DNA of 38,350 nt from Peptococcaceae bacterium SCADC1_2_3 (GCA_000681355.2 JJNX02000013.1:1-38350), one strand, 5' to 3'. Numbered from the stretch's first letter, positions 8,177-30,327 are shown. The notes: a model not told the origin generated them from the sequence alone. Translations and numbers: made by a program.

Positions 8177-8205
8177 ATGATAAGGTATAGTATTACCTAA
8201 TTTTA

Positions 8206-8260: not shown

Positions 8261-8396
8261 TATCTTCATAAGTTAATTTATGTCAGTGCTAGCAATTATT
8301 AGTAATATCTAACTATACAGCTAAGCTTCTAAGGTTTAACTCCTAAAACCAAAATTAAGCTTAGTTTAATAAATGAATTTTAAGGGGGGAAAAAGT

Positions 8397-9392: not shown

Positions 9393-9417
9393 TTTTTTAG
9401 GAGGTGAAAAATAGAAA

Positions 9418-10866
9418 GTGGCCCAGCGTGTGATAGTTGATCCGGTAACTAGAATTGAAGGACACCTGAAAATTGAAGTAGAAGTGGAAAACGGAAAAGT
9501 AATTGACGCCAAGTCAAGCGGGACGTTATTCAGGGGAATTGAATTAATTTTAAGGGGCCGTGACCCCCGTGATGCCCCCCATATCGTGCAGCGCATTTGT
9601 GGTGTTTGCCCCATTACCCACGGCATGGCCTCCATGTTTTGCCTGGATGATGTTTTTGGGGTAAAACCGCCTCCCAACGGCAGAATAGTGCGCAGTTTAA
9701 TTCAAGGGGCAAATTATATTCAGTCCCATATTTTACATTTTTACCACCTGGCGGCTTTAGACTACGTTATAGGTCCGGAAGCAGCCCCCTTTATTCCCCG
9801 TTACAAAGGGGACTACCGTTTGCCTAAAGCCATTAACGATAAGGCCGTGGAACATTATATTCAGGCTTTAACCATGCGGAAAAGAGCTCAGGAGATGTTG
9901 GCCATTTTTGGGGCTAAAATGCCTCACGTGACGGTATTTACCGCCGGGGGGGTTACCGAAAGAGTAACGGCGGAAAAAATTGACCAGTTTAAAGCTTACT
10001 TAAAGGAACTGACTTCTTTTGTTGATAACGTATATGTTCCTGATGTCCTGGCGGTAGCCAATGCTTACGCTGACGACTGGTTTAAAATTGGGACAGGCTG
10101 TAAAAACATGCTGGTTTACGGTGTGTTCAGGCTTTCGGATGAAGATGACCCGGCCGGGCAAAAGCAATTTTTTAAGCGGGGCCGTTACACCAAAGGGCAA
10201 TTTGCCCCGGTGGATATTTCTAAAATAACGGAAGACGTAAAGTATTCCTGGTTTGAGGATGAAAATACCGGCCTGTATCCCGGAGAAGGAGCTACCGTAC
10301 CGAGCCCCCGCAAAAAAGAAGCTTATACCTGGCTAAAGGCGCCGCGTTACGAGGGTTTACCGCACGAGGTAGGACCGTTGGCCCGAATGTGGGTAAATAA
10401 ACAAAAAGACGTGGCTGCTTTAGGTGAAAAAGCCTTTTCTGTTTTAGGCCGGCATTTCGCGCGGGCACTAGAAACCTCTATGGTTGCTCACGCTATGTTT
10501 AGTTGGCTTGACCAATTGGTGCCTGGGGAACCTACTTTTGCTCCCTTTGATATACCCGGTGAAGGAAGCGGGGTGGGTCTTAATGACGCGCCGCGGGGCG
10601 CTTTAGGACATTGGATTACCATTAAAGACCATGTCATTGCCAATTACCAGGCGGTGGTACCTACCACCTGGAATGGAGGCCCCAGAGATGATAAAGGGCA
10701 GCGGGGTCCAATTGAAGAAGCGCTAGTGGGAGCACCGGTAAAGGATGCCGATAACCCCATTGAACTGGTTCGTATTGTGCGGGCCTTTGACCCCTGCCTT
10801 GCCTGTGCCGTGCACGTTTTAGAAGTTAAGGGGGTTTATAAAGAACCAAAAAGATTCATAATTTAA
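9418..10866 (+). CDS. [NiFe] hydrogenase large catalytic subunit
   Basis: The 482-residue subunit holding the NiFe(CN)2CO site. The four Cys ligands are in RICGVCPITH (about residues 60-69) and DPCLACAVH near the C-terminus. Sixteen residues follow the last His, the tail expected to be cut by the maturation protease encoded at 7518. It has no export signal of its own and would cross the membrane with the Tat-tagged small subunit. The start is GTG 9418, 13 bases after GAGG, a long spacer. The gene lies 25 bases after the small subunit in the same operon. The group within [NiFe] group 1 is not assigned. Confidence 0.94.
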   Translation: MAQRVIVDPVTRIEGHLKIEVEVENGKVIDAKSSGTLFRGIELILRGRDPRDAPHIVQRICGVCPITHGMASMFCLDDVFGVKPPPNGRIVRSLIQGANYIQSHILHFYHLAALDYVIGPEAAPFIPRYKGDYRLPKAINDKAVEHYIQALTMRKRAQEMLAIFGAKMPHVTVFTAGGVTERVTAEKIDQFKAYLKELTSFVDNVYVPDVLAVANAYADDWFKIGTGCKNMLVYGVFRLSDEDDPAGQKQFFKRGRYTKGQFAPVDISKITEDVKYSWFEDENTGLYPGEGATVPSPRKKEAYTWLKAPRYEGLPHEVGPLARMWVNKQKDVAALGEKAFSVLGRHFARALETSMVAHAMFSWLDQLVPGEPTFAPFDIPGEGSGVGLNDAPRGALGHWITIKDHVIANYQAVVPTTWNGGPRDDKGQRGPIEEALVGAPVKDADNPIELVRIVRAFDPCLACAVHVLEVKGVYKEPKRFII

Positions 10867-10989
10867 CTTTATTATAATTAATTTCATTTAAAACTAAATT
10901 TTAGACATATATTATTCTCCTGTAATTTTAAAAAATAAACCTGTTCACGAAGGACAGGGCTTAAGCTAAAAACATTGACCATTAAAAGT

Positions 10990-11047
10990 AACCATGAAGG
11001 TGCTTCTCTCCCTTAAGGAAGGGGAAGTGTTCGTGGTTATTTTTTTA
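10990..11047 (+). terminator. Hairpin with T-run between the two hydrogenases
   Basis: AACCATGAA at 10990 pairs with TTCGTGGTT, extended by CTTCTCTCCCTT with AAGGGGAAG, and is followed by ATTTTTTTATAT. This has the form of an intrinsic terminator. It ends only 36 bases before the [FeFe] hydrogenase start, leaving no room for a separate promoter, so it may attenuate read-through instead of ending the operon fully. A smaller hairpin CCTGT/ACAGG lies about 40 bases upstream. Confidence 0.65.
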
Positions 11048-11082
11048 TATATAAAGATATAAAATTTTTAAAGGAGGAAAAA

Positions 11083-12672
11083 ATGATGAGTCTAAACAGC
11101 AAAGAATTGGAAGAAAGCAAAGAAATTACCCGGCGGGCCTTTTTAAAAATAATTAGCGGGTTAGGTCTTACTGGTTTAATGGCGGGAGGATTAAGCGGTT
11201 GCGTACCTAAGCAAACCGGGGAGATTACTCCTCCTTTACTAGCCAAATCAAAGATGTGGCCGGAAAATGTAGTTGGCCGGATTCCTATTGACCCTGACAA
11301 TCCTTCTATTGTTCGTTATGATGAAAAATGTATTCTTTGTGGTCAATGTATTCAAGCCTGTCAGGAAACTCAATCCGTATACGGTTTTTACAATTTACCG
11401 GTGGTGGATGAAACTATTTGCATTAATTGCGGTCAGTGTACTCTAGTTTGCCCTACGGGGGCAATAAGTGAACGGGATGATACAAGGAAGGTGCTAAAAG
11501 CCCTGGCCGACCCGGATAAATTTGTAGTTGTCCAAACTGCTCCGGCTACCCGGGTAGCGCTGGGGGAAGAATTTGGGATGCCTGCCGGTGCCTGGGTGAT
11601 GGGCCAACAGGTGGCAGCCTTAAGACGTCTTGGTTTTGACGCCGTCCTGGACACTAACTTTACGGCAGATTTAACCATTATGGAAGAAGCCACCGAACTA
11701 ATTAAAAGAATAAAAGGAGAAATTGATAAACCCCTACCCCAATTTACTTCTTGCAGCCCGGGATGGATTAAGTTTTGCGAGTATTTTTACCCCGAACTAC
11801 TTCCCCACATGTCTTCCTGTAAATCACCCCAGCAAATGTTCGGTGCCCTGGCAAAAACTTACTACGCAAAAAATAAAAATATCCCTCCCGAAAAGTTTGT
11901 TTCTGTTTCTATTATGCCTTGCACCGCCAAAAAATTTGAAGCTAAACGTCCGGAAATGAATGATAGCGGACTATGCTTGGGAAAACCTGCATTACGGGAT
12001 GTTGATATTGTTCTGACTACCCGGGAGTTGGCCCGGCTGTTAAAACAAAGAAACATAGATTTAAATAAACTACCAAAAGAAAATTACGACCCCTTGATGG
12101 GAGAAAGCACCGGAGGAGCAATTATTTTTGGAGCTACCGGCGGAGTAATGGAGGCAGCAGTACGTACGGCTTACTTTTTTGTAACCGGCCAACAACCTCC
12201 GGCAAGTTTATTTAATCTTACGCCCGTGCGGGGCCTTTCCGGAATTAAAGAGGCCCAGGTGGATATTCCAGGCGCCGGTACGGTGAAGGTAGCAATTTGT
12301 CACGGTATGGCTAACGGCCGTAAAGTGCTGGAAAAAGTGAAACAGGGCCAGTCACCGTGGCATTTTATTGAATTTATGGCTTGCCCTGGCGGCTGTTTAG
12401 GTGGTGGAGGACAACCCCGAACTACCGCCTTGCCTTCGGATGAAATTCGCACCAAACGTCTTAACAGTCTTTACCAGGCGGATGCTCGCTGGCAGCGGCG
12501 GGAAAGCCACGAAAATCCGGAAGTCGTTGCCCTTTACCATAAATTCCTGGAACACCCCATGAGCGAATTGGCCGAAAAGCTTTTGCATACTGAATATGTG
12601 TCCCGGGCGGATAAACTTAACCGGACGGCGGTAGCTGCCGCCAGAAGCTGGAAATTAAGGGTTGTAAAGTAA
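11083..12672 (+). CDS. [FeFe] hydrogenase, Tat-exported lipoprotein
   Basis: A 529-residue iron-only hydrogenase. Residues 16-40 carry a twin-arginine motif (TRRAFLK) followed by a lipobox LSGC with Cys40, so the mature enzyme should sit on the outer face of the membrane. Two 4Fe-4S ferredoxin motifs follow (CILCGQCIQAC near 83, CINCGQCTLVCP near 112). H-cluster motifs are TSCSPGW (222-228), MPCTAKK (278) and EFMACPGGCLGGGGQP (430). By spacing, Ser225 lies where clostridial enzymes have the first 4Fe-4S ligand Cys; the proton-relay Cys (224) is kept. The small-subunit-like C-terminus is fused. Ribosome site GGAGG precedes ATG. The next gene encodes its likely electron partner. Confidence 0.92.
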   Translation: MMSLNSKELEESKEITRRAFLKIISGLGLTGLMAGGLSGCVPKQTGEITPPLLAKSKMWPENVVGRIPIDPDNPSIVRYDEKCILCGQCIQACQETQSVYGFYNLPVVDETICINCGQCTLVCPTGAISERDDTRKVLKALADPDKFVVVQTAPATRVALGEEFGMPAGAWVMGQQVAALRRLGFDAVLDTNFTADLTIMEEATELIKRIKGEIDKPLPQFTSCSPGWIKFCEYFYPELLPHMSSCKSPQQMFGALAKTYYAKNKNIPPEKFVSVSIMPCTAKKFEAKRPEMNDSGLCLGKPALRDVDIVLTTRELARLLKQRNIDLNKLPKENYDPLMGESTGGAIIFGATGGVMEAAVRTAYFFVTGQQPPASLFNLTPVRGLSGIKEAQVDIPGAGTVKVAICHGMANGRKVLEKVKQGQSPWHFIEFMACPGGCLGGGGQPRTTALPSDEIRTKRLNSLYQADARWQRRESHENPEVVALYHKFLEHPMSELAEKLLHTEYVSRADKLNRTAVAAARSWKLRVVK

Positions 12673-12687
12673 GGAGGGGACTAAAAA

Positions 12688-13521
12688 ATGGCAAAGGCAG
12701 TTTTAGTTGATATTACCAAATGTGTGGGCTGCGGCGGATGTACGGTAGCCTGTAAATTATATAATGAGCTTACCTGGGAAGAAAAAGAACCGCAGTTGGG
12801 GGAAAAGGCAAATCTCTGTGCTAATAACTGGACAGTAGTGCAAAAATTTGCGGTAGATACACCAGAAACAGGGGTGTGGCGGTACATAAAAAGACAGTGT
12901 ATGCATTGTTTAGAGCCCGCTTGTGAATCGGCCTGTTTTACCCATTCTTTTGTAAAAACAAAGGAAGGGGCAGTGATTTACAAGCCAACGGAGTTAAAAC
13001 AGGATTTTTGCGTGGGCTGCCGTTACTGCATGATTGCCTGTCCCTTTGACATTCCTAAATTTGAATGGGATAAAGCTCTTCCTTTTGTTCGCAAGTGCCG
13101 TTTTTGTAACGACCGCCTTAAAGCGGGAGAGCCACCGGCGTGTGTGTCGGTTTGCCCCACCGGCGCCTTAAAATTTGGCGAAAGGGAAGAACTGCTGGTT
13201 GAAGCCAGGCAAAGAATAAGCGCCAGTCCTCATTATGTAAAAGATATATACGGAGAAAAAGAATACGGCGGAACTTCCTGGCTTTACCTTTCCGATGTGC
13301 CTTTTGAAAAAATAGGGCTTAAAACAACGGCCTTTGAAAAGCCGGTTTCCAAGGAGCCCATTCCCTTATACAGCTGGAATGTCCTTAAGTGGACTCCTTA
13401 CATCTTTGTGGGTTGGGGGGCTGTCTTAACCGCTTTGCACTATTACACTAAAAGAAGGGTCGAAGTCCACGAAGAAGAAATGTACGAAGCGGTGGAAACA
13501 AAAGAAGATATAAAGCAGTAA
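12688..13521 (+). CDS. Membrane-anchored 4x[4Fe-4S] electron-transfer subunit
   Basis: A 277-residue FdhB/HybA-like ferredoxin subunit with four Cys clusters: CVGCGGCTVAC (about 12-22), CMHCLEPACESAC (about 72-84), CVGCRYCMIAC (about 109-119) and CRFCNDR with CVSVCPTGA. A single transmembrane segment near residues 236-256 (YIFVGWGAVLTALHYY) is followed by KRR and an acidic tail. It lies 15 bases after the [FeFe] hydrogenase and most likely carries electrons between it and the membrane quinone pool or another redox partner. No cytochrome b-type subunit is found. There is no N-terminal signal, so the protein could travel with the Tat-tagged hydrogenase. Confidence 0.88.
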   Translation: MAKAVLVDITKCVGCGGCTVACKLYNELTWEEKEPQLGEKANLCANNWTVVQKFAVDTPETGVWRYIKRQCMHCLEPACESACFTHSFVKTKEGAVIYKPTELKQDFCVGCRYCMIACPFDIPKFEWDKALPFVRKCRFCNDRLKAGEPPACVSVCPTGALKFGEREELLVEARQRISASPHYVKDIYGEKEYGGTSWLYLSDVPFEKIGLKTTAFEKPVSKEPIPLYSWNVLKWTPYIFVGWGAVLTALHYYTKRRVEVHEEEMYEAVETKEDIKQ

Positions 13522-13738: not shown

Positions 13739-13766
13739 TTGACACCTGGTAAATAAGCATGATAAC
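13739..13766 (+). promoter_or_regulatory. Promoter of the surface-protein/wtp operon
   Basis: TTGACA (13739-13744) is followed after 16 bases by GATAAC (13761-13766), four of six matches to the -10 consensus. Transcription would start near 13773, about 16 bases before the riboswitch, which is the expected geometry. Confidence 0.6.
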
Positions 13767-13788
13767 CTTACTTTAAATTTACAGACTG

Positions 13789-13883
13789 CTCCGAGCTTAT
13801 TATCCTAAAACGAAAAAACGTCACGGAAATAAGCCGATAGGGTAGTTTTGGAAACGAAACTGCCTCCCTTATTTGGAAAGGAG
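13789..13883 (+). ncRNA. Moco-family riboswitch upstream of surface/wtp operon
   Basis: Motifs in order: CTCCGAGC, stem GCTTATT/AATAAGC, CCGATAGGG, the hairpin GTAGTTT with GAAACTGC, and GCCTCC closing with GGAAAGGAG. All match the Moco RNA consensus and the copy at 8086. The 3' strand AAGGAGTAG (13878-13886) could also pair with CTATT-ACA-CCTT (13920-13931), directly before TGTTTTTCTTTT, giving a possible terminator that competes with the aptamer; this alternative fold is inference. The long leader to 14093 holds no other gene. Finding it ahead of WtpABC fits control of Mo/W uptake by cofactor level. Confidence 0.82.
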
Positions 13884-14093
13884 TAGGAAATGATTCAGTT
13901 TTTACTATTTACAAAAAGGCTATTACACCTTCCTGTTTTTCTTTTCTGTTTTCTTTTTCTTTTCATTTTTATTCTTCAGTCCGAAAGATTTTTCTCCGGT
14001 TGCCCTCCTTGATTTTCAGGTTTGAATTATTTTTGAATTATTAAGGTTCTCCTGCTCTTTTATCTTTGACCTCGAAGTAAGGAGGAAACGGAT

Positions 14094-14966
14094 ATATTTA
14101 GCTTTTTAGCAAAAGCCAGGGTATTCTGCCGGCGAGTTGGTATTTTTCAGTCAAGAAAAGCTAAATTCCAAAGAAAAGTCTTTGTCTTTACCCTGCTTTT
14201 CTTCATTTTAATCCTGGCCCTGCCTGAAGGACAGGCAAATGAGTTTTCGACCCGGCAGGTACGCATAGTTAAATATGCTCCTGACAAAAAAACAATTTTA
14301 TCCGAAAGAACAATTGATTATAAATGGATGAAGGCTAATCTTCCCGTATTCGGGAATGGAAAGACCCACTATTACCACCAGGGACCGGTTTTTGAAGACA
14401 GTTGGCGGAAAGTTTACCCGAACAAATCATATAACCGGTGGGACCCCAAAGAAAGCATTAACGTAGAAAACCGGGACATGGGAGCAGTAAAAGGAACCAG
14501 CCTTAAAGACCTGGTTAACCTGGTGGGCGGAATGTCTAAGGGCGACGAAGTAAGGGTTAAGGGGACAGACGGTTTTTATAAATGGTTTGCCTTTGAAAAT
14601 ATCTGCCGTCCTCCTTCAAGACAAGGGCCTATCGTCCTTTGCTGGTACAATAGCGGAAAAAACAGCAAAGGAGAAGAACAAGGGACTGGTTATCCACCCG
14701 ATTATTACTCGGGAATGCGGTTGGTTTTTTTTGCTCCAGTTGCGGGCAATTCAAAGGGTTTACATTGTTTTGGAAATTGGGACATGTACGGATGTCTGGC
14801 CAAAAAATACTGGCATTTTTATGGGAGTGGAAAAGAGAAATATCCTTCTTCAAGCGGACTTTCGGTAAAAAGAGTGGCTGAAATAGCCATTTATACCAAA
14901 AATATTTCTGTTTCAAAAACAAAGGAGGTAGATTTTTGTGCTCAAAAAATTTCTGGTAAAAAATAG
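14094..14966 (+). CDS. Exported paralog 1, SUOX-like domain, AUA start
   Basis: First of four paralogous exported proteins, about 290 residues. From Lys49-region onward it shares the family pattern: VKYAPD, DYKWMKANLPV, THYYHQGPVF, GTSLKDL, GGMSKGDEV, QGPIVLCWY, YWHFY, and VAEIAIY near the C-terminus. This resembles the sulfite-oxidase-type molybdopterin-binding domain (PF00174-like) but without a proven cofactor site. The frame is open from 14070 and encodes a signal peptide (VFVFTLLFFILILALPEGQA), yet has no ATG, GTG or TTG before Met at 14328, which lies inside the conserved domain. An AAGGAGG at 14079-14085 stands 8 bases before ATA 14094, the proposed start. It overlaps the next gene by 29 bases. 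Confidence 0.7.
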   Translation: MFSFLAKARVFCRRVGIFQSRKAKFQRKVFVFTLLFFILILALPEGQANEFSTRQVRIVKYAPDKKTILSERTIDYKWMKANLPVFGNGKTHYYHQGPVFEDSWRKVYPNKSYNRWDPKESINVENRDMGAVKGTSLKDLVNLVGGMSKGDEVRVKGTDGFYKWFAFENICRPPSRQGPIVLCWYNSGKNSKGEEQGTGYPPDYYSGMRLVFFAPVAGNSKGLHCFGNWDMYGCLAKKYWHFYGSGKEKYPSSSGLSVKRVAEIAIYTKNISVSKTKEVDFCAQKISGKK

Positions 14967-17900
14967 CGACTTTTTTAAACCTGTTATTTGTCTATTGTTT
15001 GCTTTTTTCTTTTTATCTTTATTGCTTCCTGCTTTAGCATCAGCAGCCGAGACCACGACCTCGGCGCACTTAATTAAGTATGCCGCGGATGGACAAACTG
15101 TAATTACCGAAACAACTGTTGATTATGTGTATATGAAAAACCATTTTCCGGTAAAAGGGGATGGAGTAACCCACTATTACCACCAGGGACCAGTTATGGA
15201 AGGGGATATGTGGGATCCGACCAGAACAATAAATTTAAAGGACCAAGGGACAGTTCAAGGAACTGACCTCAAAGACCTTTGCGAGTTAATAGGTGGCCTG
15301 TCGACTGGAGAAAAGGTAAGGGTTAAAGCTGCAGACGGTTTTTTCAAGGAATTTCCGTACGAAAACATCTATTCTCCCAGTCTCAATCAAGGGCCTATTG
15401 TCCTTTGCTGGTCCAAAGACAAAGTGGAAGTGCCTGGTTTTAGTGATGGAATGAAGATAGTTTTTATGTCCCAGGTAAAAAATGGGGATGGTAAGTATGT
15501 TTTTGGAAACCAGGATATGAAGGAGTGTTTTCCGGAAGCATACTGGCATTTTTATAAAAGCGGCACCCAAGATTATCCCTCTAGCAGCGGTTACACGGTA
15601 AAGTATGTAAGTGAAGTTGCCATCTTTAGTAATGTTCCTGCTGAACCATCCTGGGAGCTTGAGTTGAGCGGGGCAAAAAGTGAGAAGATAAGCAAGGCAA
15701 AATTTGAAGAAGGGGCTAACTGCCACGGCTTGGAATACACGGATAACAATGGCAAATGGAAAGGTATACCATTATGGTATTTAATGGGTTGGGTAGATGA
15801 CGAAATATCCCATGGCCCAGGCGCCTTTAATGACAGCCTGGCTGAAACCGGCTACGAAGTTAAGGTAACGGCCGGCGATGGTTTCTCCAAAACTTTTTCA
15901 TCTAAAGACCTGGCCAGAAATAATAATTATATTGTTGCCTGTTATCTTGACGGCTCTCCTTTACCTGAGCTTGATGATAAGAAAAGACCCCTGGCTCCTT
16001 TAAAACTCGTTGGGACTGCAGCAGAAGGCGGAAACAAGGTAGGCAATATTGTTAAAATCAGTCTGGATATTACCCCGGCGCCACCCCAAGAAACCCTTAC
16101 AATAACCGGCAAAACAGGCTCGAAAGTTTATACTTTAGCTGAAATTAAAGCCCTGCCAGCCTACACAGATCATGGCGGCTTTAAAAAAAGCACGGGTGCA
16201 ATTGTAGGGCCATACAAGTACCAAGGAGTAAAAGTGGTGGATTTACTTTCCGGAACAGGAGGTCTGGAGGCTTCCGACAGTCTAAAAATAACGGCTTCCG
16301 ACGGGTACTCAATGGACTATACTTACGACCAAGTGCAAGGAAAACTAACTACTTATAATAAGGACACGGGCGGGGAGGAAGCTGTCCCGGGGCCGGTAAA
16401 CATGGTGCTGGCTTATGCGGAAAACGACAATCCTATTCCGAAGGAAAACGGCGGCCCTTTAAGAATTGTTTTTGCCGGTCCGGATAAGCCAATTACCGAC
16501 GGCCATTTTTGGGTAAAGTATATCAGCAAAATTGAAGTGCAGGGTGGCCTAAGTGAATGGTGGCTTGAACTAGAAGGGGCAATTAAAGAAAAAATGGACC
16601 GTTCTACTTTTGAAAGCGGCGCCAGTTGCCACCAGGCTGTATACACAGATGGCGAGGGTAATAAGTGGAGCGGAATACCTCTTTATTATCTTGTAGGACG
16701 AGTTGATGACGCAGCGTCCCATGATTTTAACGATGAACTGGCAGATACCGGCTACACCGTCACGGTTACTGCCGCTGATGGATACGCCAAAACCTTCAGC
16801 AGTGCATTTGTAAAGCTTAACAAAGGGATTATCCTGGCCAACCGTTTAAATGAAGAGGTATTACCGGAAAATAACTGGCCGCTTAAACTTACAGGTCCCG
16901 CGCTGAAAAAAGGAGAGAACGTTAAAAAGGCAGCCAAAATAACCTTAACCATAACCAACCAGGCTGACCTTTGGCCTTCGGTTATTACCTTGCCTGAGTA
17001 CCTTCAAGCCGGCAGCTCAAGCACCGTAACCGTTCGTGTTTATAATGGAGGCGCAAAAAACGCCGCAAATTTTGAGATTATCCTTAACGCCAACGAAAAA
17101 CAGGTGGAAAGTAAAAGAGTTGACCTGCTGGCAGCCGGGGCAGATACAGAAATCAGTTTTACCTGGACTCCGGAAAATGCAGGCCTATATACTTTAAAAG
17201 TAATTATTGACCCTAAAAACGAAATTTTAGAAAACAATAAACTGAATAACGAATTAACTAAAGATGTGCAAGTTGCCTCTCGTCCTGGAAGCAGTGGGGG
17301 TGGAGGAGCGCCAACTAAACCCCAAAAGGTAGAAAAAAATATTGTCGCGGGGGCGGCTACCGTTGCTGAAATTTCCGGAGTAGTAAAGATAGAGGTACCG
17401 GCAGGAGCGGTAAGCGGGGGAAATGCCGTTATTGCCGCCGAGACGATCGGTGAACAAAAGGCAAAAGGTTTGGACAGGCCCCTTTTAAGTAAAGTGGTTG
17501 ATGTTCAGGTGAAAAACGGAACAATAACCGGAAAGATCAATCTTACCCTTTATTTTGACCCTAAAAAGCTGGCTAAAAATCAAGAACCGGCAGCTTTTTA
17601 TTATGAAGAAAAAAACAATCAGTGGGTCAAACTGGACGGGGTGGTGGATTATGACCGGTCTACCGCTACTGTATCAGTAGAGCACCTTACGCCCTTTGCT
17701 GTTTTTGCTCTGCCGAAAGAAGAAATTAAGCCTGCGGTTAAAGAAAAAACTGTTTTTCCCGATTTGCAAGGCCATTGGGCAGAAGCAGTGATAAATGAAT
17801 TAGCTGGAATGGGCATCATCAGCGGATACCCTGAGGGCGCCTTTAAACCGGAAAATAAAATCACCCGGTTGGAGGCCACCGCTCTTTTAGCCCGGGCTCT

Positions 17901-18309
17901 TAAACTTACTTCCGGGGATGAAGAGGAGCTTAAAATTTTTAAAGATGCAGCCCACATCCCTGGCTGGGCCAGAAAAGCAGTCTCGGCAACGGTAAAAGAA
18001 GGTTTGCTAAAAGGTTACGAGGAAGCAGACGGAACTTTCACCTTCGCCGGACAAAAGTTGGTTAACCGGGCGGAAATGGCCGTCTTGGCAGGCCGGATTA
18101 TGGATAGAAAGCTAGGGCCGGTAACCCCGGCAGCTCTTAATTTTACTGATGCCGGGCAGATTCCGGTTTGGGCCAGACAAGCTGTTGGCGTGGCAGCGGC
18201 TAAGGGGGTTATGAGCGGCTACCCGGACAATACCCTGCAGGCTCTAAATAACCTTAACCGGGCCGAAGCGGCAACCATGATTAAACGAATGCTTGATTTA
18301 TTAACTTAA
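14938..18309 (+). CDS. Giant S-layer-anchored paralog 2, multi-domain
   Basis: An 1123-residue cell-surface protein. Order: signal peptide (1-37); the shared paralog domain (about 38-235, HYYHQGPV); two alternating kinds of SUOX-like module, A (237-380 and 536-670, GANCHGLEY or GASCHQAVY, IPLWYL or IPLYYL, TGY.V.VTA.DG) and B (384-536, TLAEIKALPAY, KYQGVKVVDL, ASDGYSMDY); a CARDB-type Ig domain (678-780); a Gly/Pro linker; a beta domain (800-930); and three SLH domains (938-1120) that bind secondary cell-wall polymer. GTG start with GGAGG 9 bases upstream, overlapping paralog 1. The role is unknown; genomic context with a Moco riboswitch and WtpABC suggests binding of a metal oxyanion or cofactor, or an extracytoplasmic redox function. 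Confidence 0.85.
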   Translation: MLKKFLVKNSDFFKPVICLLFAFFFLSLLLPALASAAETTTSAHLIKYAADGQTVITETTVDYVYMKNHFPVKGDGVTHYYHQGPVMEGDMWDPTRTINLKDQGTVQGTDLKDLCELIGGLSTGEKVRVKAADGFFKEFPYENIYSPSLNQGPIVLCWSKDKVEVPGFSDGMKIVFMSQVKNGDGKYVFGNQDMKECFPEAYWHFYKSGTQDYPSSSGYTVKYVSEVAIFSNVPAEPSWELELSGAKSEKISKAKFEEGANCHGLEYTDNNGKWKGIPLWYLMGWVDDEISHGPGAFNDSLAETGYEVKVTAGDGFSKTFSSKDLARNNNYIVACYLDGSPLPELDDKKRPLAPLKLVGTAAEGGNKVGNIVKISLDITPAPPQETLTITGKTGSKVYTLAEIKALPAYTDHGGFKKSTGAIVGPYKYQGVKVVDLLSGTGGLEASDSLKITASDGYSMDYTYDQVQGKLTTYNKDTGGEEAVPGPVNMVLAYAENDNPIPKENGGPLRIVFAGPDKPITDGHFWVKYISKIEVQGGLSEWWLELEGAIKEKMDRSTFESGASCHQAVYTDGEGNKWSGIPLYYLVGRVDDAASHDFNDELADTGYTVTVTAADGYAKTFSSAFVKLNKGIILANRLNEEVLPENNWPLKLTGPALKKGENVKKAAKITLTITNQADLWPSVITLPEYLQAGSSSTVTVRVYNGGAKNAANFEIILNANEKQVESKRVDLLAAGADTEISFTWTPENAGLYTLKVIIDPKNEILENNKLNNELTKDVQVASRPGSSGGGGAPTKPQKVEKNIVAGAATVAEISGVVKIEVPAGAVSGGNAVIAAETIGEQKAKGLDRPLLSKVVDVQVKNGTITGKINLTLYFDPKKLAKNQEPAAFYYEEKNNQWVKLDGVVDYDRSTATVSVEHLTPFAVFALPKEEIKPAVKEKTVFPDLQGHWAEAVINELAGMGIISGYPEGAFKPENKITRLEATALLARALKLTSGDEEELKIFKDAAHIPGWARKAVSATVKEGLLKGYEEADGTFTFAGQKLVNRAEMAVLAGRIMDRKLGPVTPAALNFTDAGQIPVWARQAVGVAAAKGVMSGYPDNTLQALNNLNRAEAATMIKRMLDLLT

Positions 18310-18348
18310 GAGAAAAGTAACTATTCAGGTGGATAGCCTGTAGGCAGT

Positions 18349-18392
18349 TAGGCTGTAGGAGGAAATAGGCGTGACTAACAGCCTACAGCCTA
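18349..18392. repeat. Inverted repeat, 11-bp arms
   Basis: TAGGCTGTAGG (18349-18359) and CCTACAGCCTA (18382-18392) are perfect inverted copies with 22 bases between them. Further AGCCTGTAG-type words lie alongside. A similar GCAGGC/GCCTGT hairpin occurs near position 120-140, so this may be a dispersed intergenic repeat. Confidence 0.55.
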
Positions 18393-18438
18393 TGGCCTAA
18401 ACAACCTGAGTAGCAACAGAGAAAATAATATTTTTGGT

Positions 18439-18471
18439 GGTGATGGCACCTTTAACTCTGGTACCATCACC
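18439..18471 (+). terminator. Strong hairpin between paralogs 2 and 3
   Basis: GGTGATGG-C-ACC pairs with GGT-A-CCATCACC around a 9-base loop. The following sequence TTAAAACCTTATTTTAGG is only weakly T-rich, so it may slow or partly end transcription, or stabilise the upstream mRNA end. Confidence 0.5.
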
Positions 18472-18521
18472 TTAAAACCTTATTTTAGGTGATAAAAAAG
18501 GAGGTTTATCGCTGACCGATC

Positions 18522-20225
18522 ATGAGCAGATTTAAAAAAATTACTTTTGCCCGGTTGTTTTTTACCTTTTTCTTGTTTTTTTCTTTTTCCCTTCTTCAAC
18601 TGTTGATTTTCGTCTCTGAAGGGGCAGCAAGCACAACTTCGGTTCACCTGGTTAAGTACGCTTCTGACGAAAAGATGATCCTGGCTGAGCGCAATGTAGA
18701 TTACCAGTGGATGAAAAATAATCTCCCGGTATATGGAGATGGAGTAATCCACTATTACCACCAGGGACCTGTTTTTCCAGAAGAATGGGAGAAGGTTTGG
18801 GGAGCAGTCTATACGGAAAAGCCTTATGATATATGGGACCCTACCAGAAGCGTTAATTTAAAGGACAAGGGGGCGGTAAAAGGAACTGCCCTTAAGGATT
18901 TGTGTGTTTTAGCAGGCGGCCTGGCTCCCGGCGAAAAGGTAAAAATTAAGGCTGAAGACGGTTTTTCTAAAATTTTTCCTTATCCCAATGTCTATACCCC
19001 TTCAGCCAGCCAGGGGCCAATTGTTCTTTGCTGGTCTAAAGATGGCCAGGAGGTTCCTGATTATAGTGACGGGATGCAGCTTATTTTCTTTTCCCAGGTG
19101 ACTAACGGGGAAGGAAAATATGTCTTTGGAAATTGGGATATGCGCCAGTCTTTTCCCCAGGAATACTGGCACTTTTACGAAACCTACCCTACTACCACCG
19201 GCTATACTGTGAAGTATGTTTCTGAGATAGCCGTTTATAGTCAGGAAGCTCCCCCGGCCTCTCCGGGCAACGGGGCAGGCTCCGGCGGGGGGATTGCTGT
19301 TGGGGAGTTGCTTAAGGTTGACCGCACCGACCCGGAAGATAAAGCTCTTGAGGTACCAGTAAACCAAACTATAACCATCGTTTTCAATCAAGAAATAAGC
19401 GCGGGGGAAATTTTTGAAGAAATTACTCTTGGCGGTAAAAACGATGAGCCCAAAGAAATAAACAAAGAGATAAACAAGTCAATTGAGGGCAAGACCCTTA
19501 CGATTAAGCCAAAACAAAACCTTAAGATTAATACTAAATATACGGTAACTATTCCGGCCAGGGCAATAAAAGACAAATCAGGAAACAGCCTTAAAGAAGA
19601 CTATAAATTTAGTTTTACCACCCTGGTTGAAAAACAAATTCCCCTAGAGGAAACAGCCATTGACTTTTTGGATTTGCAAAACCACTGGGCAAGAGAGGCT
19701 GTTGCCAAGCTGGCTGGTGTCGGTTTAATTAGAGGGTATCCTGATGGCAACTTTAAACCAGAAAAAAAGGTTAGCCGGGCAGAAATAACCGTTACCTTGA
19801 CGCGCTTACTCGGACTTTCCCCGGAAAATGAACGGGAATTAAGATTATTTGCGGATGCTGCGGCCATTCCTGTCTGGGCGCGCGGGGCAATCGCCGCGGC
19901 AACTAAAGATGACCTGATAAAAGGGTATCTGCAGGACGACGGGAGGTTAATCTTTGAGGCAGAAAGGCCTGTCAGCCGCTCTGAAATGGCTTGTTTGGCC
20001 GTGAGGATAATTAAAGAAAAAACGGGCGAGGAAAGCTTAAGCCCTTTTGAATTTAAAGACGCCGGCAAAATTCCGGTCTGGGCAAAAGAGGCCTTTGAAT
20101 TGTCTTTAGCCAAGGGATTTATAAAAGGTTATCCAGACAATACCCTTCGTCCGGATAACTTGGTGAGCCGGGCTGAAGCTGCTTTAATAATAGGGCGGTT
20201 GAGGGATTTAATCAGCAAAACGTGA
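18522..20225 (+). CDS. S-layer-anchored paralog 3 with Ig-like domain
   Basis: A 567-residue surface protein: signal peptide (1-37), the shared paralog domain (about 38-232; VDYQWMKNNLPVYGDG, HYYHQGPVF, GPIVLCWSK, YWHFYE), a Gly-rich linker (about 245-260), a Big_5-type Ig domain (about 265-370; VNQTITIVFNQEI, KYTVTIPARAIKD) and three SLH domains (377-563) ending with SRAEAALIIGRL. ATG 18522 is the first usable start after an in-frame stop at 18513, but GAGG is 17 bases upstream, an unusually long spacer. It lies 212 bases after paralog 2 and one base before paralog 4. Function unknown; SLH anchoring on the outside is clear. Confidence 0.85.
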   Translation: MSRFKKITFARLFFTFFLFFSFSLLQLLIFVSEGAASTTSVHLVKYASDEKMILAERNVDYQWMKNNLPVYGDGVIHYYHQGPVFPEEWEKVWGAVYTEKPYDIWDPTRSVNLKDKGAVKGTALKDLCVLAGGLAPGEKVKIKAEDGFSKIFPYPNVYTPSASQGPIVLCWSKDGQEVPDYSDGMQLIFFSQVTNGEGKYVFGNWDMRQSFPQEYWHFYETYPTTTGYTVKYVSEIAVYSQEAPPASPGNGAGSGGGIAVGELLKVDRTDPEDKALEVPVNQTITIVFNQEISAGEIFEEITLGGKNDEPKEINKEINKSIEGKTLTIKPKQNLKINTKYTVTIPARAIKDKSGNSLKEDYKFSFTTLVEKQIPLEETAIDFLDLQNHWAREAVAKLAGVGLIRGYPDGNFKPEKKVSRAEITVTLTRLLGLSPENERELRLFADAAAIPVWARGAIAAATKDDLIKGYLQDDGRLIFEAERPVSRSEMACLAVRIIKEKTGEESLSPFEFKDAGKIPVWAKEAFELSLAKGFIKGYPDNTLRPDNLVSRAEAALIIGRLRDLISKT

Positions 20226-20235
20226 GGTGATAAAG

Positions 20236-21102
20236 ATAACCATAAAAAACAGGAATAGGTATTTTAGTTTTTTTTTACTTAGTTTTTTACTTATTTTTTA
20301 TTTATTTTCCCCGGTATTGGCCTGGGGGGCGGAGCCGACTACAGCAGTACAACTGGTAAAATATGAAACCAATAAAAAAACAGTGACCGGGGAAAAAAGG
20401 GTGGACTACCGTTGGATGGAAGCCAACCTGCCGGTATACGGAGACGGGAAAACTTTTTACTATCATCAGGGACCTGTTTTTGAAGGAGACAAATGGGACC
20501 CCGGCAGAGCCAAAAATTTAAAAAATAAGGGAGCGGTAAAAGGAACTGCTCTTAAGGACCTTTGTAAACTGGTTGGGGGCATGTCACCAGGTGACGAAGT
20601 GGTAATTTTTGCTTCTGATGGCTATCAGGTGAAACTAGATTACCAGAATATTTATGAGCCACCAGACAGACAGGGTCCGGTAGTTCTTTGCTGGTATAAC
20701 GGGGAGGAAGAAAAAGCCGGGGAGCAACAGGGAAATGGTTATGTGCCTTCTTATTATACCGGAATGCGGCTTGTTTTTATGTCAAAAGTTCCTAATGCAG
20801 AAGGCAAGTATGTTTTTGGCAACGCGGATATGCGGGATTGTATGAAGAAGGAAAAATACTGGCATTTTTATGAAGGAAAGTATCCAAGTACAAGCGGGCT
20901 TTCCGCAAAATGGGTAGAAGAGATAGCCATTTTTTCTGGAGGGGCACCGGAAAAACCTTTTCGGCTAACTACCAAAGAAACCGGCAAAAAATCACAATTC
21001 CCCCCGTCCGATTATACGTTTATGGATATGATTCCGTATATTGTTTGTTTTTTAATATTGCTTCTGGCCGGAGTTTATTTTTTTAACCGGCCAAAAAAAT
21101 AA
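20236..21102 (+). CDS. Exported paralog 4 with C-terminal membrane anchor
   Basis: A roughly 288-residue relative: signal peptide (about 1-31, ending AWGA), the shared domain (VDYRWMEANLPVYGDG, FYYHQGPVF, GPVVLCWY, GKYVFGNADM, YWHFYE), then a linker and a C-terminal transmembrane helix (YIVCFLILLLAGVYFF) with a basic tail. It is held in the membrane instead of by SLH domains. GTG 20227 is the first conventional start but lies inside the 8-base perfect Shine-Dalgarno GAGGTGAT (20224-20231). ATA 20236, 8 bases after GAGG, is the better placed start. The Shine-Dalgarno overlaps the end of paralog 3, giving tight coupling. Confidence 0.78.
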   Translation: MTIKNRNRYFSFFLLSFLLIFYLFSPVLAWGAEPTTAVQLVKYETNKKTVTGEKRVDYRWMEANLPVYGDGKTFYYHQGPVFEGDKWDPGRAKNLKNKGAVKGTALKDLCKLVGGMSPGDEVVIFASDGYQVKLDYQNIYEPPDRQGPVVLCWYNGEEEKAGEQQGNGYVPSYYTGMRLVFMSKVPNAEGKYVFGNADMRDCMKKEKYWHFYEGKYPSTSGLSAKWVEEIAIFSGGAPEKPFRLTTKETGKKSQFPPSDYTFMDMIPYIVCFLILLLAGVYFFNRPKK

Positions 21103-21122
21103 AGGGGAAAGAGATTAAAAGA

Positions 21123-21716
21123 ATGTGGGGAAAAAGAAGTAAATCTATCTTTTCTGTCTTCCTGGTGGTTGCTATTATTTGCCTTTTATCTATTTATATT
21201 TACGGTCATTGGCAAAACGGTCGAATAAGCTGGAAACTAACCTTAACGGGTAAAGAAGGCACTAAGGAGCTTACATTTTATCAAATTAAAGAAATGTCTT
21301 CTTACCAGGGGTGGGGCGGTTTTTTTACTTCGGTTGGTGTGGTCAACGGGCCGGACAAGTACAAAGGGGTGCCGGTGGAAGACCTTTGCGCCCAGGTAGG
21401 CGGTATTTCCCCAAAAGATTGCCTTTGGGTTTTTTCTCCTGATGGCTACTCCATGGTTTTTTCTTACGAACAGGTAAGGGGAGACTTTGTGGCCTATGAC
21501 CCGCAGACTTTAAAGGAAATACCTGCCAGAGGATTAAAGATGCTTCTGGGGTACGAGAAGAATAAAACCTTCTTTACTGAAGAAGAAGGAAAGCCCTTAA
21601 GAATTGTTCTGGCGGGCCGGCAAAAGCTTTTAACCGAGGGGCATTACTGGGTTAAGTGGGTGAACAAAATAGAGGTTCGGCCAGTAAAAAAAGGATTAAG
21701 AGAAGATGAAGGTTAA
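21123..21716 (+). CDS. Small membrane-anchored SUOX-like domain protein
   Basis: A 197-residue protein with an uncleaved N-terminal membrane helix (about 8-28) followed by one module of type B of the large S-layer protein: LTFYQIKEMSSYQGWGG, KYKGVPVEDL, SPDGYSMVF, PLRIVLAG and a closing HYWVKWVNKIEV. This fold resembles the molybdopterin-binding domain of sulfite-oxidase-type enzymes, but the Cys that ligates Mo in those enzymes is not obvious here. It lies 20 bases after paralog 4 and overlaps the substrate-binding protein gene by 11 bases, so it is translated with the transporter. It could pass ligand between the surface proteins and the binding lipoprotein; that is inference. Confidence 0.75.
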   Translation: MWGKRSKSIFSVFLVVAIICLLSIYIYGHWQNGRISWKLTLTGKEGTKELTFYQIKEMSSYQGWGGFFTSVGVVNGPDKYKGVPVEDLCAQVGGISPKDCLWVFSPDGYSMVFSYEQVRGDFVAYDPQTLKEIPARGLKMLLGYEKNKTFFTEEEGKPLRIVLAGRQKLLTEGHYWVKWVNKIEVRPVKKGLREDEG

Positions 21717-22758
21717 ACAAATTATCGCGGGAATAATATTAGCCGGTCTGTTTTTAAGTTTAAATGCCTGTGGCCTTCGGGAAAAAGAAAAACCTAAATT
21801 AAAGGTTATTTACGCCGGAAGCCTGATCCAACCATTGGAAGAGGCAAGCAAACAATTTAATAAACTTTATCCGGAGGTAGAGGTGGAAACAGAAGGGCAC
21901 GGAAGCATCCAGGTGATCAGGTATGTAACTGACCTGGGGAAAAAGGCGGATGTACTTCTGGTGGCCGATTATTCTCTGATTTCCTCCTTGATGTACGATG
22001 ACTATGCTAACTGGTATATAAAGTTTGCCACCAACCAGTTGGTAATTGCCTACACGGAAAAAAGCAAATATGCGGCTAAAATCAATAGCGCCAATTGGTA
22101 CGAAATTCTTTCCCTTCCTGAGGTAAAATTTGGCTTGGCACATCCGCTTTTAGATGCTTGTGGCTACAGGTCATTAATGGCCATTCAATTAGCGGAATTA
22201 TATTATCAAAAACCCAATATCTTCAAATATTTAATTGCGAATAATTTTGACCCGTCCGTGAAAGTGCAAAAGGATGACGGCAACTATACCATATTCATTC
22301 CCGAGGTTATAAAACCGCTTAGTCAAAAAGTATCTTTGCGGGGCGGCAGTATCCAGGTTTTGGCCTTGCTTGATGCCGGGTTGATCGACTACGCTTTTGA
22401 ATACCGCAGTGTTGCCCTGCAACACGGGCTTAAATTTGTTGAACTGCCTCCTCAGATTAACTTAAGTTCCCCTGTCTGTGATGATTTTTACCGCCGGGTA
22501 AAAGTAAATTTTGGGTTTCAGCGTTTTAGCGCTATTGGTAATGAGCAGGCAGGAAAAGTAATTTTTTACGGCTTAACTATTCCCAAGAATGCTCGAAATC
22601 CTCTTTGGGCTGAAGAATACGTAAAATTTATCCTTGGTCCAGAAGGGAAAAAAATCTTTACCGAACATGAACATCCGGTTATTCCCCCGGAAGCAGATAA
22701 TCTTTATCAAATACCTCCTGCCTTGGCACCTTTTATTAAAAAGGAGAAAACCTGGTGA
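21706..22758 (+). CDS. wtpA: Tungstate/molybdate-binding lipoprotein, WtpA-like
   Basis: A 350-residue extracytoplasmic solute-binding protein. The N-terminus has a lipobox LNAC with Cys near residue 22. The mature part shows family features of archaeal-type WtpA/ModA: KVIYAGSLIQPLEEA, HGSIQVIRYVTDLGKKADVLLVADYSLI, TNQLVIAYTEKSKY, and LAHPLLDACGYRS. Binding-site residues cannot be assigned surely by eye, so tungstate versus molybdate is open. Its start overlaps the small SUOX-like gene, and its stop overlaps the permease start by 4 bases. Confidence 0.85.
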   Translation: MKVKQIIAGIILAGLFLSLNACGLREKEKPKLKVIYAGSLIQPLEEASKQFNKLYPEVEVETEGHGSIQVIRYVTDLGKKADVLLVADYSLISSLMYDDYANWYIKFATNQLVIAYTEKSKYAAKINSANWYEILSLPEVKFGLAHPLLDACGYRSLMAIQLAELYYQKPNIFKYLIANNFDPSVKVQKDDGNYTIFIPEVIKPLSQKVSLRGGSIQVLALLDAGLIDYAFEYRSVALQHGLKFVELPPQINLSSPVCDDFYRRVKVNFGFQRFSAIGNEQAGKVIFYGLTIPKNARNPLWAEEYVKFILGPEGKKIFTEHEHPVIPPEADNLYQIPPALAPFIKKEKTW

Positions 22759-23543
22759 AAAAAAGGCATGTAGAAACAATTTACTTTATTTCTCTTTTTA
22801 CCAGCCTGATTACCTTTTTCTTTATCGTTTATCCTATTTTTAATACCATCTCTTTGACCAAAGGAAGCATGCTCTGGGTAACGCTTCGGGATATTTCTTT
22901 AATGCACCCGGTTTATTTAAGCATTCTGGCGTCTACCATAACGGCTGTTGTTTCTTTGTTCCTGGGGGTTCCTCTGGCTTACCTGTTGGCCCGCAAAGAT
23001 TTCAAAGGCAAAGGTCTTTTAGAAAGTATTGTTGACTTGCCGGTGGTAATTCCTCATCCGGTGGCAGGTATTTGTCTTTTAACCGTGGTCAGTCCTAATT
23101 GCTGGGTAGGACGGTTACTGGAGCGCTCAGGAATTGAAGTAGTTGGAACGCTAACGGGCATTGTCATGGCCATGACTTTTGTGAGCATTCCTTTCCTGAT
23201 TAATGCAGCCAGGGAGTCCTTTGAAAATATACCTTGGCGTTTAGAAAACGTTTCCCGTACTTTAGGAGCTACCCAAACTCAGGCTTTTTTTACGGTTACC
23301 CTCCCTTTAGCAAAGAAGGGTATCGTAAACGGCCTGATCATGACCTGGGCCCGGGCAATTGGCGAATTTGGGGCCGTCATTATTTTGGCCTATCATCCGC
23401 TAATTGCTCCCACTAAAATTTATGAAACGTTCCTTTCTTATGGTCTTTTCCAGGCTATACCCTTAACCACCATCATGCTTATTGTTTGCCTTGGTTTGTT
23501 TTTCTTAGCGAGGTTGCTTACGCAAAGAAAAAGGTCTTCTTAA
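22755..23543 (+). CDS. wtpB: Tungstate/molybdate ABC permease, WtpB-like
   Basis: A 262-residue inner-membrane permease of the molybdate/tungstate/sulfate type. About six hydrophobic segments are visible. The cytoplasmic EAA loop that contacts the ATPase is seen as SRTLGATQTQAFFTVTLPLAKKGI, followed by ARAIGEFGAV, a strong signature of the ModB/WtpB/CysT group. GTG 22755 overlaps the wtpA stop, with AAGGAG at 22741 as ribosome site. The ATPase gene follows after a single base. Confidence 0.88.
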   Translation: MKKRHVETIYFISLFTSLITFFFIVYPIFNTISLTKGSMLWVTLRDISLMHPVYLSILASTITAVVSLFLGVPLAYLLARKDFKGKGLLESIVDLPVVIPHPVAGICLLTVVSPNCWVGRLLERSGIEVVGTLTGIVMAMTFVSIPFLINAARESFENIPWRLENVSRTLGATQTQAFFTVTLPLAKKGIVNGLIMTWARAIGEFGAVIILAYHPLIAPTKIYETFLSYGLFQAIPLTTIMLIVCLGLFFLARLLTQRKRSS

Positions 23544-23544
23544 G

Positions 23545-24594
23545 ATGTTGGCCGTCCATAATTTATCTTTAAACGTTGGCCGCTTTAAATTAAAAGATAT
23601 TAATTTGGTAGTGCAAGAGGGAGAATTTTTTGCCCTCTTAGGACCTACAGGAGCAGGAAAATCAGTTTTTTTAGAAGCTCTGGCCGGACTGCGCCAGGTT
23701 AATTCCGGCAATATTTGGTTAAACGGGCAGGATATTACCTTTGAGAAGCCAGAAAAGCGTAAAATGGCTTTTGTTTATCAGGATTTTTCTCTTTTTCCCC
23801 ATTTAAAGGTAAAAGATAATATCCGTTATGGACTTTATTTTCAAAAACAAAAAAATAAAGATAGGGAGGAAAAATTTTATCGTTACTTGGTAGAACTGTT
23901 AAATATAGAAAATCTTTTAGAGCGCTACCCTGAAAGTTTAAGTGGAGGAGAAAAGCAAAAGGTGGCGCTGGCCAGAGCTTTGATGGTCAGACCGGCCACG
24001 TTGCTGCTAGACGAACCGTTCAGCAGCCTGGACTTTAATACCAGAGAGGAATTGGTAAATAAGCTTCAAAGCTTGCACCGGGATTTGGCTAATAGGGTTA
24101 TCCTGGTTACCCATGATTTTACCGAGGCAAGAATTCTGGCTAACCGGGCAGGCGTGATTAGAGAAGGATTTTTAGAGCAAGCAGGAAGTTTAGAGGAGAT
24201 CTTTTTAAAACCGGCATCTTACTTTGTGGCTGAATTTACCGGAATGAAAAATCTTTTCCCGGTAACCGTTTCGGAGGGCAAGGCATGGTTTAGTGAACAT
24301 GCCCAGGCGGTGGTTATTGAAGGAAAGGCAAAAGAAGGCAATTATTACTTGGGGGTGCGTCCGGAAAATATTCTTTTGGCTAAAGATTGCATAGAAAGAA
24401 TTGGCAATTGCTTTTCGGGAATTATTACCGGAATTAAAAATAAGGGGGTTTACCTGGAAGTCAATATTACCACTCCCTTTGCTCATTGGAAAGCGGTTTT
24501 AAGTCCCAGCCAGTTTTCTGCCCTGGACCTTAAGCTAGAAGAAAAGGTATACTTTGGCTTTAACCCGTCTCAGGTAATTTTAGTTGACCATTAA
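23545..24594 (+). CDS. wtpC: Tungstate/molybdate ABC ATPase, WtpC-like
   Basis: A 349-residue ATP-binding subunit that drives oxyanion import. Seen: Walker A GPTGAGKSVF (about 33-42), a Q-loop YQDFSLFPHL, the signature LSGGEKQKVALARAL (about 133), Walker B LLLDEPFSSLD and switch His in VTHDF. Residues 235-349 form a TOBE/Mop-like regulatory domain that in ModC and WtpC can bind the oxyanion and trans-inhibit transport. It ends the operon; no clear terminator follows, only AT-rich sequence. Confidence 0.88.
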   Translation: MLAVHNLSLNVGRFKLKDINLVVQEGEFFALLGPTGAGKSVFLEALAGLRQVNSGNIWLNGQDITFEKPEKRKMAFVYQDFSLFPHLKVKDNIRYGLYFQKQKNKDREEKFYRYLVELLNIENLLERYPESLSGGEKQKVALARALMVRPATLLLDEPFSSLDFNTREELVNKLQSLHRDLANRVILVTHDFTEARILANRAGVIREGFLEQAGSLEEIFLKPASYFVAEFTGMKNLFPVTVSEGKAWFSEHAQAVVIEGKAKEGNYYLGVRPENILLAKDCIERIGNCFSGIITGIKNKGVYLEVNITTPFAHWKAVLSPSQFSALDLKLEEKVYFGFNPSQVILVDH

Positions 24595-28934: not shown

Positions 28935-28964
28935 AATAACTAAGAAATAAAAAACTAAATAAAA

Positions 28965-29193
28965 TAAACAGGTGCCTTAACAGGAGAATAGGGAAATTCG
29001 GAGGTTGGCACTCAGCATTGCCGTAAAGGTAAGCTTTGGGCGGTATCCTAGCTTAAAATACTGAGTGTCACCCCAAACGGTGCGGTCCCGCCACTGTAGT
29101 CGGAGAGCTGGTTTAAAGCTGGTCACTGGGCGCCACCCTGGGAAGGCCTGAACAAAAAGCGATGATCCGTTAGCCAGGAGACCTGCCTGTTTA
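28965..29193 (+). ncRNA. Cobalamin riboswitch
   Basis: The outer stem TAAACAGG pairs with CCTGTTTA at the two ends. Conserved parts follow in order: GGTGCC, the core GGTGCGGTCCCGCCACTGT (about 29079-29097), GCCACCCTGGGAAGG, and the B12 box AGCCAGGAGACCTGCC. This fits an adenosylcobalamin-class element. A strong terminator follows directly, so it should turn the downstream genes off when cobalamin is plentiful. Confidence 0.92.
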
Positions 29194-29219
29194 TTGAAAA
29201 AATACGCGAGGATGATGGT

Positions 29220-29263
29220 AAAGTCTTCAGCCAAAAGTTATTTTGGTTGAAGACTTTTTATTT
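29220..29263 (+). terminator. Riboswitch-controlled intrinsic terminator
   Basis: AAGTCTTCAGCCAAAA and TTTTGGTTGAAGACTT form a perfect 16-bp stem with a GTTA loop, followed by TTTATTTT. It ends just before the ribosome site of the dehydrogenase gene. Confidence 0.9.
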
Positions 29264-29278
29264 TGGGGAGGTGTTTTT

Positions 29279-30310: not shown

Positions 30311-30327
30311 GAAGGGAGCAATTTTAT

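Follow-up and report, generated by a model that had tools for sequence, protein, structure and literature searches.

Methanogens, anaerobic alkane oxidisers, and syntrophic Bacillota rely on tungsten and molybdenum enzymes such as formate and formylmethanofuran dehydrogenases, and both metals are often scarce or sulfide-bound where these organisms live. Their uptake is thought to start at the binding proteins ModA, TupA, and WtpA, the last of which belongs to the WtpABC importer and is represented by Pyrococcus furiosus WtpA and Archaeoglobus fulgidus ModA/WtpA (PDB 2onk). In the Isd/NEAT systems, several wall-anchored receptors pass heme to an ATP-binding cassette (ABC) importer. PruR is an exported, periplasmic protein with the sulfite oxidase (SUOX) fold but no molybdenum-ligating cysteine; its ligands are reduced pterins, although annotations often call it a molybdopterin oxidoreductase (PMC13259868). 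The RF01055 riboswitches respond to molybdenum or tungsten cofactor (Moco or Tuco); the Escherichia coli Moco RNA is an OFF switch, and 17 of 19 organisms with P3-less Moco RNAs show signs of tungsten-cofactor use (PMC2408646).

Here we describe a cluster in Peptococcaceae bacterium SCADC1_2_3 that joins relatives of WtpABC, PruR, and RF01055. The window, by which we mean the whole 38,350-nucleotide stretch analyzed (GCA_000681355.2 JJNX02000013.1:1-38350), belongs to a draft assembly of 2.59 Mb in 259 contigs with a completeness of 90%. In it, a riboswitch, four paralogs sharing a domain that we call N-type, a SUOX-fold protein that we call OxMo, and wtpABC lie on the + strand in that order (Table 1), and we consider it reasonably probable that this operon is a surface acquisition system for tungsten or molybdenum. 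The original prediction, made from the window's sequence, had proposed a cofactor-sensing surface system that either captures a metal species for an ABC importer or performs an outside redox reaction. It did not include the precedent of a pterin-binding protein, a WtpA clade specific to the cluster, the partner phosphatase, or the energy-coupling factor (ECF) variant, all of which are described below.

Conserved gene order and riboswitch control

The surface module keeps company with tungsten and molybdenum genes far from its source. Scanning Genome Taxonomy Database (GTDB) genome contigs with an alignment of the four paralogs gave 74 loci, mainly in Methanomicrobiales, Methanosarcinales, Argoarchaeum, and Methanophagales, with the remainder in a few Bacillota and Dehalococcoidia. 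The genes for the N-type domain, OxMo, and WtpA are consecutive in 37 of the 74, usually with short overlaps, and many of the other loci are interrupted by contig ends. We sampled 247 genomes evenly across the archaeal phylum that includes a Methanoculleus. The N-type domain is present in 31 of them, clearly so in 26; in 24 of these 26, wtpA lies within 1 kb of the domain (327-908 bp), and 16 of the 26 have a further wtpA elsewhere. In the window's own phylum 20 of 299 genomes match, several through a shorter OxMo-like part, as do 7 of 60 close relatives.

In Bacillota the link extends to regulation. We searched for RF01055 in 26 Bacillota genomes encoding the N-type or the related OxMo domain, and in 20 of them a Moco riboswitch lies on the same strand at most 4.5 kb upstream of the domain; given how many riboswitches each genome has, chance would yield 0.11 such cases. 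In a 21st (G041), the riboswitch is about 10 kb upstream, ahead of an apparent single long operon. The original prediction had tied the surface proteins to a metal importer and to cofactor sensing, and had asked whether homologs generally occur away from molybdenum and tungsten genes; both ties reappear in these samples, and the homologs show the opposite of such scatter.

The window's aptamer scores far above the RF01055 gathering score of 36, as the prediction of a Moco-type riboswitch implied, and a second match stands at 8074-8192 (+; 68.3 bits); the alignment columns for P3 are empty in both. In all aptamers inspected, P2 leads to P4 within a few bases and P3 is lacking; the loci examined closely include the window, L039, L093, L130, L131, L132, L135, L137, L139, L142, L143, L145, and L147. 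A terminator-like hairpin follows the aptamer in L135 and, by eye, in L039 and L139; looking after the window's aptamer, we found no clear terminator. The riboswitch supports cofactor-sensing control of the operon, and by analogy with the E. coli RNA the switch would turn expression off.

Three observations concern riboswitches outside the cluster proper. At 8074-13521 of the window, the second P3-less aptamer precedes hydrogenase genes of the NiFe(Se) type (8373, 9418) and the [FeFe] type (11083), followed by a gene for an HmcB-like Fe-S protein (12688). If these hydrogenases are under a tungsten-cofactor switch, the cell might be able to exchange formate dehydrogenase for hydrogenase under tungsten shortage. 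Another contig of the source genome (L148, G000:C54) ends in inverted copies bearing the same riboswitch, probably an assembly artefact. At 28953-31380 of the window, a cobalamin riboswitch precedes two genes, one zinc-alcohol-dehydrogenase-like and the other for a TrpD-like phosphoribosyltransferase, which may both relate to cobamides.

Fold of the surface domains and the WtpA clade

Predicted structures place both surface domains in the SUOX fold. The AlphaFold models have mean pLDDT values of 97.3 (N-type) and 91.7 (OxMo), and the top Foldseek match in the PDB for each is PruR (7kom; E 2.1e-4 for N-type, 1.4e-6 for OxMo), followed by sulfite dehydrogenase/oxidase and YedY; OxMo matches 2a9a at E 2e-6 and the N-type domain 2ca4 at E 4e-3. 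These matches bear out the earlier suggestion of a sulfite-oxidase-type fold. Profile comparison connects the N-type and OxMo domains (97.6%), and the OxMo profile retrieves sulfite oxidases by sequence. Searches of PDB sequences by phmmer from paralog 4, OxMo, and a stand-alone relative returned no match. OxMo belongs to PF00174 and has a single membrane helix at its N terminus, as anticipated for a small membrane-tethered relative, and in the source genome PF00174 is above its cut-off in this cluster only.

OxMo retains the GxPLR and EGxxWVKW motifs, but across 40 rows of OxMo and 113 of the N-type domain no conserved cysteine occupies the molybdenum-ligand segment, in an alignment to MsrP that is itself weak. 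Conserved patches include Y43, Q46, W55, Q114, W121, and D166 in the N-type domain and R160, T171, E172, W176, and W179 in OxMo. The ligand column in OxMo appears to hold threonine or serine, as read from sequence rows without a residue-level structural alignment, and the only near-invariant cysteine of the N-type domain, C78, sits in the DLC..VGG helix. A catalytic Moco site is unlikely, given the lack of the metal-ligating cysteine and a closest fold that belongs to a non-catalytic pterin binder, and this speaks against the outside redox reaction raised in the original prediction. The SUOX-fold domains are likely to bind a ligand. The PruR pocket is considered too small for Moco (PMC13259868), and so a tungsten- or molybdenum-pterin as their ligand stays a proposal.

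The importer carries its own signature. The window's WtpA passes both NCBIfam cut-offs (364.5 against 355 bits and 344.1 against 242.75 bits) and matches PDB 2onk at E 5e-87. WtpB (278 against 340 bits) and WtpC (322.6 against 440 bits) have wtp models as their best matches but fall below the cut-offs, so that the earlier assignment of WtpABC stands in full for WtpA and by best match for the other two. A maximum-likelihood tree built from 53 WtpA rows groups 31 cluster WtpAs, the window's included, in one clade (support 100/100, stem 0.55) that covers archaea, Bacillota, and Chloroflexota and leaves out the other WtpAs of the same genomes; the cluster-labelled rows outside it are second WtpAs that happened to fall in fetched stretches. 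By path, the window's copy is nearest to those of Methanosarcinales. All 31 clade members have HGS at the ligand serine (EGHGS in most), whereas non-clade WtpAs have G, A, or another residue at the position of the clade histidine, two before the serine of the GS motif. Since cluster WtpAs stand apart from the other WtpAs of the same genomes, surface module and importer appear to have co-evolved.

The binding serines and the aspartate of DACGYRS are conserved in cluster WtpAs, which have serine in place of the A. fulgidus glutamate of 2onk that we take to be the ligand Glu218. We considered a loss of tungstate coordination through this replacement and dropped the idea, as most second WtpAs also have serine there. 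The source genome also encodes a second transporter, which is ModABC-like and has a separate Moco riboswitch (L149, G000:C128, 1317-3801).

Locus anatomy and partner genes

Table 1. Features of the cluster in Peptococcaceae bacterium SCADC1_2_3; positions are counted from the first letter of the window.
Feature	Position	Strand	Evidence
Candidate sigma-70 promoter, TTGACA and weak -10	13740..13768	+	Read in the sequence; not called by the consensus scan; weak
Moco/Tuco riboswitch aptamer without P3 stem	13777..13899	+	RF01055, 84.6 bits, E 2.4e-19
Paralog 1, exported N-type SUOX-fold domain, start codon uncertain	14094..14966	+	Domain E 1.2e-114
Paralog 2, N-type domain, PF00174 region(s), CARDB, and 3 SLH, 1123 aa	14938..18309	+	
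Paralog 3, N-type domain, Big_5, and 3 SLH, 567 aa	18522..20225	+	
Paralog 4, N-type domain and C-terminal membrane helix, 291 aa	20227..21102	+	Domain model pLDDT 97.3
OxMo, PF00174 membrane-tethered SUOX-fold protein without Mo-ligating Cys, 197 aa	21123..21716	+	
WtpA, tungstate/molybdate-binding, cluster-specific clade	21706..22758	+	TIGR03730 344 bits, NF003196 364 bits
WtpB, permease	22755..23543	+	Best match NF040839, 278 bits, cut-off 340
WtpC, ATPase	23545..24594	+	Best match NF040840, 323 bits, cut-off 440

The four same-direction exported paralogs of the original prediction are recovered: the N-type domains of the others are 54-58% identical to that of paralog 4 over about 205 aa, and both predicted S-layer homology (SLH) anchors, on paralogs 2 and 3, consist of three repeats each (E 1e-31 to 1e-32). 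Paralogs 1 and 4 have no NCBIfam match and no Pfam match above its cut-off. A search of the source genome found the N-type domain nowhere else, so that it is confined to the cluster. Paralog 1 has a start defect: its frame is open from 14070 and includes a signal-peptide-like stretch (KVFVFTLLFFILILALPEGQA), ahead of which no ATG, GTG, or TTG lies in frame. The sole good Shine-Dalgarno sequence, AAGGAGG, stands 8 bases 5' of an ATA at 14094, and starting instead at the ATG at 14328 would lose the signal peptide. This points to a start codon outside the standard set, a fault in the assembly, or damage to the gene.

From 20225 onward, junctions that had been described as overlaps or gaps of 1-20 bases agree when recomputed: gaps of 1 base (20225/20227) and 20 bases (to 21123), overlaps of 11 (to 21706) and 4 (to 22755), and a gap of 1 (to 23545). 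The gap of 212 bases between paralogs 2 and 3 was searched for a + strand terminator and none was found. A single transcript is predicted to span the cluster. As for the promoter proposed earlier, its TTGACA at 13740 is seen, but the -10 element is weak and the candidate is no evidence on its own. An ATG-initiated, hydrophobic frame of 40 codons at 13890-14012, whose Shine-Dalgarno-like GGAG lies inside the 3' strand of riboswitch P1, may be a leader peptide or chance. Aldehyde:ferredoxin oxidoreductase was sought in the source genome and none was found.

In the order N-type domain, OxMo, and WtpA, the N-type protein has a median length of 286 aa and mostly a C-terminal membrane helix; most long loci have 3-4 paralogs. 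The anchor modules seen on these surface proteins (SLH, CARDB, Big, PKD, and PEGA) differ by lineage; what persists is the SUOX-fold domain with its association to tungsten or molybdenum genes or control. A Pelotomaculum locus (L093:9884-20616) combines N-type and OxMo domains with Shr-like_HID modules of heme/hemoglobin type, a hint that these anchors may work with more than one kind of metal cargo.

Other genomes add partners that the window lacks. A secreted purple-acid-phosphatase-like enzyme (PF16656 and PF00149) is frequent in their clusters, occurring in 39 of the 74 loci; sought in the source genome, it was absent, and it is therefore not part of the window's system. One genome of the window's family (G006) has the order moeA, moeA, TupABC-type transporter, back-to-back riboswitches, two N-type SLH proteins, phosphatase, N-type protein with membrane helix, OxMo, WtpABC, N-type protein, tandem riboswitches, SLH protein, and FecBCD-like transporter; its two moeA genes and TupA-type transporter, adjoining the cluster, support the metal link. 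In others (among them G279, G136, and G080), the same riboswitch precedes phosphatase and OxMo proteins, together with tandem ECF ATPases and a fusion of an OxMo domain with a YkoE-type (PF09819) ECF component. The surface module and its control are thus common to these systems, and the importer varies, some Bacillota having an ECF type instead of Wtp.

Several further arrangements were seen beside such proteins. In L130, L139, L142, L145, and L147, a Moco riboswitch is followed by the YkoE-type ECF/SUOX-fold fusion and a phosphatase, with an ApbE-like protein in L139; this set is a possible ECF importer for a pterin or a tungsten or molybdenum species. Two genomes from a single genus have tandem Moco riboswitches ahead of an SLH protein and a FecBCD-like transporter (L135:19439-19745 and L138:8234-8537). 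A MotA/TolQ/ExbB-type proton channel and DUF2149 adjoin surface proteins at L130:10114-11086 (assigned by Pfam), L133:4169-5130, and L141:3676-4630 (both by sequence likeness), suggesting an energised surface complex.

Proposed function and comparison with known systems

In the acquisition system that we favor, low tungsten (or molybdenum) cofactor would let the P3-less riboswitch permit operon expression, and secreted and S-layer-anchored, non-catalytic domains of SUOX/PruR type would bind a metal-bearing or pterin ligand outside the wall. Membrane-tethered paralog 4 and OxMo would relay that ligand to the dedicated WtpA, and WtpBC would import the metal oxyanion. In relatives, the secreted phosphatase may dephosphorylate the ligand, and in some an ECF importer would take the place of Wtp. 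The control step is supported by the position of the riboswitch ahead of the operon, and the tie between surface part and importer by the conserved gene order and the separate WtpA clade. The genes for paralog 4 and OxMo directly precede wtpA. The identity of the ligand, its binding, and its relay are predictions from these genes.

Some observations weigh against this proposal. In Bacillota with a single N-type domain no WtpA match exceeds the cut-off and other importers are found, so that something other than tungstate may be carried. Five Bacillota genomes (G115, G161, G241, G005, and G010) lack an upstream riboswitch, two of them at contig edges, and none of nine archaeal loci scanned has a Moco riboswitch. 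The N-type Foldseek TM-scores for PruR are modest (0.42-0.46 by query), and pterin-binding residues could not be superposed on PruR, a sub-profile having failed to recover the PruR alignment.

A possible, though doubtful, variant is that the proteins scavenge ready-made tungsten or molybdenum cofactor, or its pterin remains, released by other cells; the SUOX-fold receptors on the surface would bind metal-pterin, the phosphatase, in loci that have it, would strip the phosphate, and the metal would enter through WtpABC or the pterin through a YkoE-like ECF importer. We know of no earlier dedicated microbial uptake route for this cofactor, and such scavenging, if true, would be the first. Dietary Moco uptake is known in Caenorhabditis elegans (PMC9793310) and makes extracellular transfer of the cofactor plausible. 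That PruR, the best fold match, signals through DcpA raises the thought of extracellular pterin sensors that report cofactor status or neighbours beside a merely co-regulated importer; we think this unlikely, since no DcpA, sensor kinase, or c-di-GMP gene is among the recurrent neighbours and the combination of several wall-anchored paralogs, importer, and phosphatase suits supply better.

Exported Moco or Tuco enzymes, performing a redox reaction outside the cell under joint control with metal uptake, would account for PF00174 and the sulfite oxidase homology. They are very unlikely given the missing ligand cysteine and the placement of C78, signal peptides that by eye are Sec-type rather than Tat, the absence of a heme or Fe-S partner from the cluster, and an OFF switch that would repress the enzyme while its cofactor was present. 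The SLH, CARDB, Big, PKD, and PEGA modules would equally suit structural or adhesive surface proteins, such as S-layer components, caught by chance in a metal operon, but it is precisely these anchors that vary by lineage and the SUOX-fold domain and metal link that are constant, making chance association quite unlikely. Many paralogs per locus and a dedicated importer would also fit a surface store or filter that buffers tungstate and molybdate or excludes thio-species, rather than capturing and relaying; this we hold to be highly improbable, as OFF-type control of the kind known for the E. coli RNA predicts expression in scarcity, not in excess.

If the surface acquisition system is real, the cluster indicates an earlier, extracellular step of uptake common to archaea, Bacillota, and Chloroflexota. 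It would offer a likely function for a widespread unnamed domain and for proteins labelled molybdopterin oxidoreductase by family name, and would make cofactor cross-feeding in methanogenic communities testable.

WtpABC, RF01055, SLH, and PruR are each already known. In the literature searched, which leaves many subscription papers outside it, we found no surface receptor system for tungsten or molybdenum joined to these parts, in keeping with the original prediction. As in known WtpABC importers, WtpA, WtpB, and WtpC are all present and adjacent, but here a surface module lies ahead of them and WtpA, with HGS at the ligand serine, falls in a clade of its own. The riboswitch is a full-length RF01055 aptamer of the P3-less form, but it would control surface proteins, which the 2008 paper on these RNAs (PMC2408646) does not name, an S-layer not being mentioned there. 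Like PruR, the surface proteins are exported SUOX-fold proteins lacking the molybdenum-ligating cysteine. PruR has tryptophan in place of that cysteine and pterin contacts of the Trp160/Tyr104 type; the OxMo column, subject to the alignment limit given above, appears to be threonine or serine. The N-type domain is longer, at about 205 aa, and without a Pfam family match. Unlike PruR-DcpA, they form wall- or membrane-anchored sets of several paralogs with a metal importer and a Moco riboswitch, and the neighbouring families include no DcpA/DTB regulator. With sulfite oxidase and YedY (MsrP) they share the fold and the G-x-P-L-R ... VKW motif, but as short single domains with neither the cysteine ligand nor a redox partner. 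The Isd/NEAT systems share the relay logic only, an analogy in which domains and cargo are unrelated. The whole system, whose function is predicted, fits no known family.

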